DNA of 64,000 nucleotides. It comes from Halopiger aswanensis. GTDB taxonomy: Archaea; Halobacteriota; Halobacteria; Halobacteriales; Natrialbaceae. A program made the position numbers and the translations under genes. Positions 23,128 to 50,306 of the stretch are shown here, in pieces. Location: NCBI RefSeq assembly GCF_003610195.1, contig NZ_RAPO01000004.1, positions 248,001 to 312,000 of the forward strand, written 5' to 3'. The notes under the pieces are model-generated. The model worked only from the letters and a program-made list of their open reading frames with translations. It made no database searches and was not told the origin of the DNA. The stretch's first letter is position 1; the number at the start of each line of letters is the position of its first letter.

Positions 23128-26100
23128 TTACTGCGAGAGCGCGGCCGCAACCGATTCGATCGGATGCGGCGGGTCGTCGCAACCGTCGTACGCCGATAGC
23201 TGGGTCCGGCAGGACGCGCCGGGCGCGACGACCCGGTCGCCGTCGCTCGCGGCGATCTGATCGAACAGGATCTCGCCGATAGCTCGACTGAGCGAGTAGT
23301 GTTCGGCCTCGTAGCCGAACGAGCCGGCCATCCCGCAACAGCCCGAATCGAGGGCGTCGACCTCGTAGCCGACCGCCTCGAGGACCGCCGCCGCGTGGCC
23401 GTCCTTCTTCGTGGCCTTCTGGTGGCAGTGGCCGTGGTAGGTCAGGGTCTCGGCCGGATCGGCGCGGTCCGTCGGCAACGCCGCGGCGAGGTCGAACCGG
23501 TCGAGGTACTCGCAGACGCCGTAGGTGTTCGCGGCGAGCCGTTCAACGTCGGGACCCGAGAGCAAGTCCAGGTAGTCCGACTGGAACATGACGGCGTCGG
23601 AGGGCTCGACGAGGACGACCTCCCAGCCGTCCTCAACGAACGGCGCCAGCACGTCGACGGTCGTCCGCGCCCGCTCGCGGGAGACGTCGAGGAGCCCTTT
23701 CGAGTGGGCCGGCCGGCCCGTCGACGAGACGCCGTCCGGAATCCGGACGTGGACGCCCGCCGTCTCGAGAACCTGAACGGCCGCTTTCCCGGCCCGCGGG
23801 TGGTTGTAGTTCGTGTACGTGTCGGGGAACAGTAGCACCTTCCGGTCGGCCTCCGCGAGGGGGACGCGAGGGCCGCGGTCGGCGAACCACGCCTCGAAGC
23901 TCTCGCTCGCGAAACTCGGCAGGTCGCGCTCGCGGGCGATCCCGAGGGTTTTCTCGGCGAGCAGGTCGGCGCCGGGAAGCGACGCGGCCAAGTTCGACAG
24001 CGGGGCGAGCGCGCTTCCGACCGCGTTCAGTCGGTCGACGTTCGCGAAGAGCCGATCGCGCAGACCCACACCGTGTTTCCGGTGGGCCGCGTGCTCGACT
24101 TCGGCCTTGAGCTTCGCCATATCGACCTCGCTCGGGCAGTCCCGCGCACAGCCCTTGCAGCCGATACAGAGATCCATCACCTCCGCCAGGAACTCCTCGT
24201 CGGTGGCGTCGGTCTCGAGGTCGCCGCTCATCGCGGCCCGCAGCATGTTCGCCCGGCCGCGCGTGCTGAGCCCCTCCTCCTCGGCCGCGCGGTAGGTCGG
24301 GCACATCACGCCGCCGGTGGTCTCCTGCTCGCCGCGACAGCCGGCGCAGCCGTGGCAGAGTTCGACCATGCCCTGAAAGCCGTTGTCGGTGTCCCACTCG
24401 AGGGTCGGCACGAGCGCCGGATCGAACTCGTAGTCGGGGTCGAACCGCAGGTGCTCGGTCATGTCGTGGTCGCCGCAGACGGTGCCCGGATTGAGCAGCC
24501 AGTCCGGGTCGAAGGCCGTCTTCAGCTCCCGGAACAGGCCCCAGACGTCGTCGCCGTAGAGCTTGCGGTTCCACTGGGTGCGCGCCCGGCCGTCACCGTG
24601 TTCACCAGACACCGACCCGCCGTAGCGGACGACGAGGTCGGTCACGTCGTCGGCGAGCGACTCGAAGTCCTCGAGGCCCGCGTCGGTTTTCGTGTTCACG
24701 AGCGGCCGCATGTGCATACAGCCCGGGCCGGCGTGGGCGTAGAAGCTCGCGAACGTGTCGTAGTCCTCGAGCACCGCGCGGAAGTCGGCGACGTAGTCCG
24801 CGAGGTGCTCGGTGGGAACGGCGGTGTCCTCGATGAAGGAGATGTGCTTCTCGTCCGACGTTCGCGAGAGGAGAATGGGCGCCGCGCTCTTGCGGAGCTT
24901 CCAGAGTTCGGCGATTCCCTCGGAGTCGTGGGCCTCGAGGGCGTCGAAGGCCCGGACCGGCGCTTCGCTGTCGGCGCCGCCGTCATCGAGATCCTGATCG
25001 GCGTCCCTGGGCAGCCGGTCGGCCAATAGGTCGGCGACTTGCTCGCGGCCGTGGTCGTCGTCTTCGGCGTAAAACTCGACGAGTAGCGCCGTCTCGGTAC
25101 CCGCGGGAAGCCGTTCGACGAGGTCGGCGAACTCCTCCGTTCGCCGAGCGAGATCGATTAGGACGTCGTCGATCGCCTCGACGGCGGCCGGATCGTGATT
25201 TCGCACGATTGTGTCGACGTCGGCCATCGCCTCGAGCAGATCGCGGTAGGTCAACAGCGCCACCGACGTCGTCTCGGGGACGGACTCGAGCGAGACGGTC
25301 GCCTCCGTCACCACGCCGAGGGTGCCCTCGCTACCGGCGAAGACGCGGGCGAGGTTGACGGTGGCGTCGGGATCAGGGTCAGGGCCAAGAGCGGCCTCGG
25401 ATTCGCCCTCGGCGTTCCCGATCTCGAGCGATCCCTCCCGGCGCTCGTCGAACGCATCGGGCTCGCCGTAGGCTTCGGCGACTAGCCGGTCGAGGTTGTA
25501 CCCCGACACGTTGCGCTTTAGCTGCGGGAAGGCGTCGGCGATCGTACCGGCGTCCTCGTCGATCACGCGGACCAGCGCGGCGTAGATCCGCTCGAGGCGG
25601 TCGCCGTCCGGATCGGCCCGCTCGCGGAGTTCGCGGACCGTCACCTCGCCGAACCGTTCGACCGAGCCGTCGGCGAGGACGACCTCGCAGGCCTCGACGT
25701 AGGCGTCAGTTTTCCCGTACTGCAGCGAGTGGGCGCCCGTGGAGTTGTTCCCGATGGCACCGCCGACGGTGCTGCGGTTCCCGGCGGCGGGATCCGGCGC
25801 GAACTTCAGGCCGTGGGACTCGAGTTCGCCGTTGAGGTCGGCCAGCACCGCGCCCCCCTGAACGGTCGCTCGCCGGGTTTCGGGGTCGATCTCGAGGACG
25901 TCGCCCATGTGGGTCGTGAAATCGAGGACGACGGCCTCGTTGACCGCCTGGCCGGCGAGGCTGGTGCCGCCGCCGCGGGGGAGCACGGGAATCCCCTCGT
26001 CGGCGCAGTAGGCGACGACGCTCGCGACGTCGGCCGTCGACCGCGGGAAGACGACGCCGACGGGCATCTGCTCGTAGGCGCTGGCGTCGGTCGCGTACAG

Positions 26101-42911: not shown

Positions 42912-43032
42912 GTGTATGATGTGACCCCAGCCACACATATTTCTTCTTACGTGACAATTGATTCCGTGCTGAGTGGAATTTTCTGAACGAAGAAGCCGTA
43001 CTACCATCTACCGGTCGTACTCGGAGCAATCG

Positions 43033-48298: not shown

Positions 48299-48318
48299 AC
48301 ACCGGGTTTCCGGTGAAA
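48299..48318 (-). repeat. Origin recognition box
   Basis: ACACCGGGTTTCCGGTGAAA, reverse complement of the box TTTCACCGGAAACnnGGTGT. Confidence 0.8.
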
Positions 48319-48379
48319 GCCGGTGAAAGGGACACGGGGTGGGGTTGATACGGAACGTCGATTGCTCTCATTTCGACTG

Positions 48380-48460
48380 GGACCTAAAGAGAATACCGTA
48401 CTATTTATTAACATAGAACGAGTAAAGTCCATTGGGTGGGTCGTGTTTAATTAGGTGAGG
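48380..48460. other. Candidate duplex-unwinding element, left
   Basis: The AT-richest tract of the left arm, lying between origin boxes of opposite orientation (48299 reverse, 48606 forward). Confidence 0.6.
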
Positions 48461-48605
48461 CGAAGTCGCAACGTGTGAGCAGCCGAAATCGGGCTCATCG
48501 CTCGGTCCACTCCCGTTCTCTCGTTTACCGTGTTGGCTGTCAATGTGCCTTTCCAGTGAATCCTAGCCTCCATTTCTTTTAGACACCACCCCCTGCTTCG
48601 ACGTG

Positions 48606-48626
48606 TTTCACCGGAAACGTGGTGTG
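48606..48626 (+). repeat. Origin recognition box
   Basis: TTTCACCGGAAACGTGGTGT followed by G; 55 bases before the orc1 start. Confidence 0.8.
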
Positions 48627-48652
48627 TGTGTCTCGGCGAAACGTTGAAGAGA

Positions 48653-48672
48653 TTTCACCGGAAACACGGTGT
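48653..48672 (+). repeat. Origin recognition box beside the orc1 start
   Basis: TTTCACCGGAAACACGGTGT ends 8 bases before the ATG at 48681, so binding of Orc1 here should also repress its own gene. Confidence 0.8.
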
Positions 48673-48680
48673 CCAAGTAA

Positions 48681-49895
48681 ATGTCCGACTCCGACGATCT
48701 GTTTGTCCGCACGGATCCGATCTTCGTCAATAAGGAACTCCTCGAGATCAGTCACGTCCCTGACGAAGGTCGTATCGTCGGGCGCGACGACGAAATCAGC
48801 CAATTAGCGAGTGCGGTCAACCCCGCTATCTTCGGCCAGAGTCCGAGTAACGTTCTTATCTACGGCAAAACCGGCACCGGGAAATCGTTGTGTGCCAAGT
48901 ACGTCTCGAGCCGGCTCGTCGATACCGCCGAGGAAGAGGGAACTGACGCGACGTACGTCTACGTCGATTGTGCGCAGGATAGCACCGAAACCCAGACCGT
49001 CCAGACGATCGCCAGTTCGGTCAACACGGACGAGACGGGGATCTACATTCCTGATAAAGGAATCAGCACGGCGACGTACTACAAACGCCTCTGGCGAATT
49101 CTCGACGAGAAGTACGACGTCGTGTTGATCATCCTCGACGAGATCGACAAACTCGAGGACGATGCGATTCTTATGCAGTTGTCTCGAGCCGGGGAAGCCG
49201 GCAAACTCACTAACTGTAAGGTCGGCGTCGTCGGTATCAGCAACAAGATCCAGTACAAGGATCGCATGGACGAACGCGTGAAATCGAGTCTGTGTGAGCG
49301 CGAATTCGTCTTCCCGCCCTACAACGCCACACAACTCAACGATATTATGGAGGCCCGAAGCGACGCGTTCCGATCGGGCGTCCTCGAGGAGGGCGTTATT
49401 CCTCGCGCTGCGGCACTCGCCGCTCGAGAGCACGGTGATGCGCGGAAGGCGATCGACATTCTTCGCTACGCGGGCGAAATCGCACAATCGACCGGTGCTG
49501 ACACCGTTCGCGAGGACTTCGTGGTGCAGGCCCGGGAACGAGCCGAGGTCGACCGGTTCAGGGAACTCATCCGCGGCTCGACGCCGCACTCGAAGTACGT
49601 CCTGCAAGCGCTGACCGTCCTCTCGCTCGAACAGAAATCGGACGATTCAGTTACGCCTGAACAGGGCTTCCGGACGACTCGTATCTACGAGGTTTACGAA
49701 CAGATCTGTCGTCAGGAAGGCGTCGATACGCTCTCGCTGCGTCGCGTTCGCGATCTCCTCAAGGAACACGCCTTTCTGGACGTGATCGAACAGTCACGAC
49801 ACAGCGGGGGAAGCGCCGAAGGGAGCTACACCGAGCACATGCTCTTGGAGGATCCCGAAGTCGTCAAAAACGTCCTCGCTGACTCGATCGACTGA
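48681..49895 (+). CDS. orc1/cdc6: Orc1/Cdc6 replication initiator
   Basis: 404 residues of the archaeal Orc1/Cdc6 family. AAA+ core: Walker A IYGKTGTGKSLCAKYVSSRL (Gly62-Ser69), Walker B VVLIILDEIDKLEDDAI (Asp154-Glu155), sensor-2 region HGDARKAIDILRYAGEIAQS, and a C-terminal winged helix (IYEVYEQICRQEGVDTLSLR) for origin-box binding. It recognises the boxes on both sides of the gene, melts the adjacent AT-rich tract and loads MCM. Haloarchaea carry several such genes, each with its own origin; the near identity of the boxes around it marks this gene as the initiator of this origin. A box just before the start codon suggests autoregulation. Confidence 0.95.
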   Translation: MSDSDDLFVRTDPIFVNKELLEISHVPDEGRIVGRDDEISQLASAVNPAIFGQSPSNVLIYGKTGTGKSLCAKYVSSRLVDTAEEEGTDATYVYVDCAQDSTETQTVQTIASSVNTDETGIYIPDKGISTATYYKRLWRILDEKYDVVLIILDEIDKLEDDAILMQLSRAGEAGKLTNCKVGVVGISNKIQYKDRMDERVKSSLCEREFVFPPYNATQLNDIMEARSDAFRSGVLEEGVIPRAAALAAREHGDARKAIDILRYAGEIAQSTGADTVREDFVVQARERAEVDRFRELIRGSTPHSKYVLQALTVLSLEQKSDDSVTPEQGFRTTRIYEVYEQICRQEGVDTLSLRRVRDLLKEHAFLDVIEQSRHSGGSAEGSYTEHMLLEDPEVVKNVLADSID

Positions 49896-49899
49896 ATCG

Positions 49900-49920
49900 T
49901 TTCACCGGAAATCTGGTGTG
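49900..49920 (+). repeat. Origin recognition box
   Basis: TTTCACCGGAAATCTGGTGT plus G, five bases after the orc1 stop codon. Confidence 0.8.
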
Positions 49921-49940
49921 GTTCACTGGAAACGCGGTGT
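49921..49940 (+). repeat. Origin recognition box, variant
   Basis: GTTCACTGGAAACGCGGTGT, with T for C in the core CACCGG. Confidence 0.7.
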
Positions 49941-49941
49941 C

Positions 49942-49962
49942 GTTCACCGGAAACCCGGTGTG
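49942..49962 (+). repeat. Origin recognition box
   Basis: GTTCACCGGAAACCCGGTGT plus G; follows the variant box with the same orientation and a 21-base period. Confidence 0.8.
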
Positions 49963-49992
49963 TGACTACTGAGAGTACCGATCCGTCCAACT

Positions 49993-50013
49993 CACACCGG
50001 ATTTCCGGTGAAA
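49993..50013 (-). repeat. Origin recognition box
   Basis: CACACCGGATTTCCGGTGAA plus A, reverse orientation, at the left edge of an AT-rich tract. Confidence 0.8.
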
Positions 50014-50062
50014 CTGTAGATAACTACATATAATTTATCCTGTTTAACACGTTCTGAGATCG
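50014..50062. other. Candidate duplex-unwinding element, right
   Basis: AT-rich tract (ACTACATATAATTTATCC and TTTAACACG) between a reverse box at 49993 and a forward box at 50069. Confidence 0.6.
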
Positions 50063-50068
50063 GTGCTG

Positions 50069-50088
50069 ATTCACCGGAAACTCGGTGT
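50069..50088 (+). repeat. Origin recognition box
   Basis: ATTCACCGGAAACTCGGTGT, right edge of the AT-rich tract. Confidence 0.8.
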
Positions 50089-50125
50089 CCGCAGTACTCG
50101 TCGCCTCATTCGTCGCTACCGTCGG

Positions 50126-50145
50126 ACACTCGGTTTCCGGTGAAA
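50126..50145 (-). repeat. Origin recognition box
   Basis: ACACTCGGTTTCCGGTGAAA, reverse orientation. Confidence 0.75.
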
Positions 50146-50286
50146 CCCTCTCTTCGTCGTATTCTATACACATACTGTTAGTAGTCGATCAACGCTCTCG
50201 AAGATCCCCTCTATCACGCGATCGAGTTACGTGTCGCGATTTACGTATCGTATAAAGCAGTACGAACACGATTTCTATCTACGTAT

Positions 50287-50306
50287 TACACCGGAAACCC
50301 GGTGTG
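50287..50306 (+). repeat. Origin recognition box, right-most
   Basis: TACACCGGAAACCCGGTGTG-type box; the 5' T-rich part is changed (ATTACACCGG), the rest matches. Confidence 0.7.

Follow-up and report, generated by a model that had tools for sequence, protein, structure and literature searches.

The window, a 64,000-nucleotide stretch of the Halopiger aswanensis genome, carries an orc1/cdc6 gene with repeated boxes and an AT-rich tract on either side, and the question it raises is which side serves as the origin of replication, or whether both do. An earlier note proposed a replication origin at this site and considered that it might be double or composite, or that one of the two tracts might be primary. 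The sequence and its comparison with relatives suggest that the locus is probably the Orc1/Cdc6-dependent origin of a Halopiger-type megaplasmid of ~582 kb, in which the upstream tract would be opened and the downstream array would limit initiation.

A search of the window with the 19-bp pattern TTCACCGGAAACNCGGTGT, a check that the earlier note had proposed, found ten boxes at 48299-50305 with at most two mismatches each, three upstream and seven downstream of orc1 (Table 1), compared with an expectation of 0.03 chance matches over the whole window at three mismatches. The count of about ten boxes, three to the left and seven to the right, thus stands. The claim that all of them share one sequence stands for the seven that carry CACCGGAAAC exactly, but the boxes at 49901, 49922 and 49994 each deviate from it by a single change. 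The entire 4.87-Mb genome holds 23 matches to TTCACCGGAAACNCGGTGT, 10 of them at the orc1 locus, while a reversed control pattern gave no match genome-wide. The box is a near-palindrome with arms CACCG/CGGTG, and its consensus, TTCACCGGAAACncGGTGT, is common to Natrialbaceae and Haloferacales loci. Haloarchaeal ORBs are usually described as including a G run; none follows the boxes in any group compared, which sets them apart from the classical G-string ORB. As in other haloarchaeal orc/cdc6 origins, the boxes lie in intergenic sequence directly beside the orc1/cdc6 gene, and at least two inverted boxes surround an AT-rich element. The gene's paralogues in the same genome (L024, L026 and L028) are adjoined by different repeats. 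An eleventh match to the whole pattern in the window (24068-24086, two mismatches) was considered as an outlying origin site and rejected. It lies inside a long conserved gene for a FAD-binding/Fe-S oxidoreductase, whose orthologue on the Halopiger xanaduensis megaplasmid pHALXA01 also carries a box-like match; coding constraint therefore explains it, and it is not part of the origin.

Table 1. Features of the orc1 locus, in window coordinates.
Feature	Position	Strand	Remarks
Distal upstream Orc1 box	48299..48317	-	Perfect match; position conserved in pHALXA01
Conserved core of upstream AT-rich tract, ATACCGTACTATTTATTAACATAGAACGAGTAAAGTCCATTG	48393..48434	.	Likely primary duplex-unwinding element
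Decayed box, TTTCCAGTGAA half kept	48542..48560	-	65 bp before plus box; recognised from repeat pair and alignment
Accessory element ACCCCCGTTTCnTnTGGA	48566..48583	-	41 bp before first plus box; degenerate in Halopiger aswanensis
Orc1 box, first of plus pair	48607..48625	+	1 mismatch; 47-bp pair spacing kept across families
Orc1 box, second of plus pair	48654..48672	+	Perfect; 8 nt before orc1 ATG
orc1/cdc6 initiator gene, 404 aa	48681..49895	+	AAA+, Cdc6 lid, winged helix
Downstream box 1	49901..49919	+	2 mismatches
Downstream box 2	49922..49940	+	1 mismatch
Downstream box 3	49943..49961	+	Perfect
Downstream box 4	49994..50012	-	1 mismatch
57-bp AT-rich interval between minus and plus boxes	50013..50069	.	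Length and AT content, not sequence, common to pHALXA01
Downstream box 5	50070..50088	+	Perfect
Downstream box 6	50126..50144	-	2 mismatches
Downstream box 7	50287..50305	+	1 mismatch

The product of orc1 contains the AAA+, Cdc6 lid and Cdc6 winged-helix domains, scores far above the TIGR02928 cut-off and has intact ATPase motifs (GKTGTGKS and ILDEIDK). Its contig, C4, is 581,759 bp long, and since its first and last 95 bases are identical, it is taken as circular; C4 is thus apparently a replicon of ~582 kb (~581.7 kb once the overlap is joined). Only 1 of the 17 Orc1/Cdc6-like matches in the genome, the orc1 at 48681-49895, is on C4. The closest relative of this Orc1 is the lone Orc1 of pHALXA01 (436,718 bp), with 98.8% identity, followed by that of pNMAG01 (84.8%) and by Haloferax orthologues (80-81%). 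The two Halopiger genes are 91.3% identical as DNA and 70% identical at four-fold sites. The left flank is syntenic with pHALXA01 (sod, pirin, a TetR regulator, methionine synthase, MATE and HalOD1), and the right flank differs. In all seven complete plasmids compared, exactly one TIGR02928 match is above the cut-off; in five (pHALXA01, pAArc1-02, pNMAG01, the Natronococcus sp. CG52 plasmid and a Halomarina plasmid) the orc1 orthologue is the only match of any strength, and on pAArc-Mg-01 and a Halostagnicola plasmid the further matches are weak and all below the cut-off. An origin of this kind therefore seems to be enough for a replicon. Together with the ten boxes and the intact Orc1, the lack of any other Orc1/Cdc6 on the replicon supports the proposed haloarchaeal Orc1-dependent origin. 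At the left end of the window, positions 1-2000 have a GC content of 42% compared with ~62% for the replicon, and this drop suggests an inserted element. The window has no Rfam match, and archaeal SSU rRNA was not found in the genome searched.

The use of the site as an origin has modest support from nucleotide skew, which was computed on the whole replicon, the window alone being uninformative. On C4, the maximum of the cumulative GC skew is 9.4 kb from orc1 and the minimum of the cumulative T-A skew 6.0 kb. Support is only modest because the skew has a low amplitude (block-shuffle p 0.11 for GC and 0.046 for T-A). Haloarchaea have been reported to show this inverted polarity, with the GC maximum located at the origin (PMC2841640). 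Across six replicons with the same origin type, whichever of four kinds of extremum fits best is nearer to orc1 than under random rotation (p = 0.028; p = 0.027 without pHALXA01), and on pAArc1-02 the skew extrema show no agreement with the position of orc1. The earlier note had proposed skew as a check for dormancy; both cumulative curves have an extremum less than 10 kb away, with a weak signal, and dormancy is not indicated. A dormant or relic origin, with the replicon starting elsewhere, seems highly improbable. Some haloarchaeal origins are dormant although their boxes are intact (PMC4595724), and one proximal box at the locus has decayed (48542..48560), at the place where Haloferax, Haloarcula argentinensis and others have their proximal minus box; however, this is the only Orc1/Cdc6 on C4, as on the complete plasmid pHALXA01, the boxes and the gene are under strong constraint, and the skew extrema are close.

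If the locus is an origin, the AT-rich tracts are the candidate sites of unwinding. The tracts noted at 48380-48460 and 50014-50062 between boxes of opposite orientation are both real: the best 40-bp windows of the upstream interval (48318-48606) and of the downstream interval (50013-50069) are 72-75% AT, and the 50-bp windows of both belong to the least stable 0.14% of the replicon (0.24% for the downstream window when confined strictly between boxes). The least stable upstream stretch is 48384-48433. Their number is, however, not special, since a third interval, 50145-50286, also runs from a minus to a plus box and reaches 68% AT in its best 40 bp, which makes one such AT-rich interval upstream and two downstream. 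Moreover, tracts of the same grade are found in ~21-26% of the replicon's longer intergenic regions, as delimited by a crude gene call, and because they are so common between genes, AT content alone is no mark of a second origin.

Conservation distinguishes the two sides more clearly. Altogether 85 loci were compared, drawn from GTDB genomes (80 related loci) and from complete plasmids. At least one upstream box is present in all 85, and three or more in the majority. The plus boxes before the ATG are usually 47 bp apart, with the second ~8 nt from the start codon; minus boxes lie farther upstream, and the AT-rich tract falls between them and the plus pair. Almost all loci share this arrangement of minus box, AT-rich tract with a conserved core, and plus pair ahead of the ATG. 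When the upstream tracts are aligned, they share a core around TTTATTA...AGTCCATTGA, with partial conservation across families, and the upstream spacer, from the distal minus box to the plus pair, is 73% identical to that of pHALXA01 compared with 55% for shuffled sequence (z 9.6). In ~2/3 of 50 loci compared, across families, an element ACCCC(C/T)GTTTCnTCTGGA lies 41 bp before the first plus box; it is intact in pHALXA01 and degenerate in the window. Its complement, GAAACGGGGGT, is similar to a classical ORB that has a G run, so that the element may be bound by another Orc1. In two Haloferacales loci that were checked, one from Haloferax and one from Halorubrum (L066 and L093), the orthologous origin is followed 1.4-2.4 kb further on by an rRNA operon, whose proximity may be the reason why many draft contigs break off just downstream of orc1.

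The downstream array has a different history. Of the 27 loci in the branch to which the plasmids belong, 22 have at least two downstream boxes, compared with none of the 58 Haloferacales loci, and the array's presence changes five times on the Orc1 tree, for which paralogues served as the outgroup. On the single-orc plasmid pAArc1-02, seven upstream boxes are accompanied by one downstream. Between the window and pHALXA01, six paired downstream boxes are 89% identical and their spacings are kept to within 2 bp (2/2, 32/34, 57/57, 37/38 and 142/143 bp, respectively), whereas the spacers are no more similar than shuffled sequence. The region thus appears to be selected for its boxes, and possibly for their spacing, rather than for the tract between them. 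A length of 57 bp and an AT content of 0.65 are common to the downstream tracts of the window and pHALXA01, and the counterpart on the CG52 plasmid measures 56 bp with an AT content of 0.62. Several Natronococcus loci have a gap of this length that is not AT-rich (0.38-0.47); for A-GB1, A-GB7 and amylolyticus the values are 0.38-0.45. The minus-plus pair with a gap of 55-59 bp is kept in several Natrialbaceae.

These observations bear on the proposal of a double origin, in which both tracts would unwind and either could fire. The minus-tract-plus geometry on both sides, the position of both tracts among the least stable parts of the replicon, and the AT content and length that the downstream tract has in common with pHALXA01 and approximately with CG52 would agree with it. 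Nevertheless, it appears very improbable: the downstream tract shows no sequence conservation, not even with pHALXA01, the corresponding gap lacks AT-richness in the three Natronococcus loci, the array is lineage-restricted, being absent from Haloferacales, the single-orc plasmid pAArc1-02 persists with one downstream box, AT-rich tracts of this grade are common between genes, and the comparable downstream region of Haloarcula hispanica, oriC2D, has no ARS activity. The double or composite origin is therefore disfavoured, and the suggestion that one tract is primary is upheld, as the upstream tract alone has a conserved sequence core, found throughout the family. Since that core is conserved and the downstream spacers are as random sequence, the upstream tract is likely the unwinding site.

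According to the mechanism proposed here, Orc1 would bind the single upstream minus box as well as the plus pair, whose members lie 47 bp apart and directly precede the orc1 start codon, and would melt the AT-rich tract at ~48384-48434, where the MCM helicase would then be loaded. The seven-box downstream array would bind the same Orc1 and restrain initiation, either by titrating the protein or by forming a bridge to the boxes upstream of the gene. Because the plus pair immediately precedes the gene, orc1 may also be autorepressed by its product. A control site bound by Orc1 is a better reading of the downstream array than a second origin, and the array's negative role is suggested by the precedent of oriC2D together with its dispensability in relatives. 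In H. hispanica, the oriC2D region with its 11 ORBs has no ARS activity, could not be deleted by itself and reduces the activity of oriC2 (PMC3936714). This precedent for titration belongs to another origin, that of H. hispanica cdc6E.

Such restraint could be exerted in either of these two ways. Orc1 on the downstream boxes could pair with upstream-bound Orc1 and block firing, as in the handcuffing of iterons, with the geometry under selection; this is possible but doubtful. The box spacings are held within 2 bp while the spacers are randomised, several Natrialbaceae loci have the same minus-plus gap of 55-59 bp, and the array is found mainly in plasmid-type lineages, but low indel rates alone could preserve spacings, and simple titration accounts for the boxes equally well. 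A pure titration sponge would, in turn, not need the gap of 55-59 bp that is kept, and the retention of spacings in randomised DNA leans slightly towards a geometric role over plain titration. More speculatively still, the downstream boxes in the plasmid-type branch of this origin family could form a geometry-constrained, sequence-free Orc1 assembly site, with selection on the box spacing and free drift of the intervening DNA, that pairs through its bound Orc1 with the upstream boxes and sets the copy number of the megaplasmid, as an archaeal counterpart of iteron handcuffing.

Isolated perfect boxes are also found far from the origin on pNMAG01 (301955), pAArc-Mg-01 (90472) and the Natronococcus CG52 plasmid (325844), between annotated genes and with no neighbour in common, and C4 has one at 42976 with one mismatch; they are possibly remote Orc1 sites or relics. 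Boxes of this kind between genes on other megaplasmids, and the intergenic location of the downstream boxes, would fit a role of the array in transcription, antisense to orc1 or of the downstream genes, instead of replication. This role is very improbable, as the genes on the right differ from those of pHALXA01 though the array is kept.

By Orc1 identity, box sequence and agreement with one of its two known genomic types, the locus belongs to the plasmid type of the oriCb family described by Wu et al. 2012 (PMC3528665). Identity exceeds the 80% used in that study with pHALXA01 and pNMAG01 and is 80-81% with the Haloferax loci, one of which was checked to be rRNA-linked; the box is that of the members as judged from the loci compared here, not from the published logo. 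The family has an rRNA-linked chromosomal type and an extrachromosomal type with variable flanks, the latter including N. magadii Nma_3611, H. xanaduensis, H. turkmenica and H. jeotgali (PMC3528665). The locus thus provides a well-resolved case in which a core origin and an auxiliary array of initiator boxes can be separated by comparison alone, over 85 relatives. The contrast between the plasmid type, with the array, and Haloferacales, without it and rRNA-linked where checked, predicts that removal of the array would raise megaplasmid copy number and that the array grafted onto a Haloferax origin would lower that origin's activity.

Compared with other plasmid-type oriCb members, the locus has the same boxes on an extrachromosomal replicon with non-syntenic flanks, and downstream boxes are mentioned for N. 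magadii (PMC3528665); it differs in its larger replicon (~582 kb), in a right flank non-syntenic with pHALXA01 and in one extra tandem box near the gene. The chromosomal type corresponds to Haloferax volcanii oriC2-orc5, an active origin (PMC3528665), whose description the chromosomal branch seems to match through the synteny and identity of the Haloferax loci rather than through the H. volcanii sequence itself. Haloferax orthologues share the boxes and the upstream layout, and an rRNA operon adjoins as described, but this type is chromosomal, has more minus boxes far upstream and has no downstream boxes. Boxes that flank an orc/cdc6 gene on both sides are nothing exceptional: they occur in several haloarchaea (PMC3528665), downstream ORB clusters are common in the group (PMC3936714; also a review), and that of H. 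hispanica has no origin activity but acts as a negative control site (PMC3936714). An upstream origin with a downstream box cluster is thus a known haloarchaeal layout, and the locus is ordinary in kind. A parallel in layout is H. hispanica oriC2-cdc6E with oriC2D (PMC3936714), since at both loci the initiator gene is immediately followed by a cluster of boxes for that same initiator, here the seven at 49901-50305; oriC2D has 11 boxes in 722 bp compared with 7 in 405 bp here, and its regulatory effect was demonstrated experimentally, whereas a similar effect is proposed here by analogy. Hla_3512 and HQ2959A, each with two candidate origins and one orc/cdc6 (PMC3528665), also combine two modules of ORBs and an AT-rich tract beside a single gene, but the box types differ between their modules, whereas the Halopiger aswanensis locus has one type on both sides.
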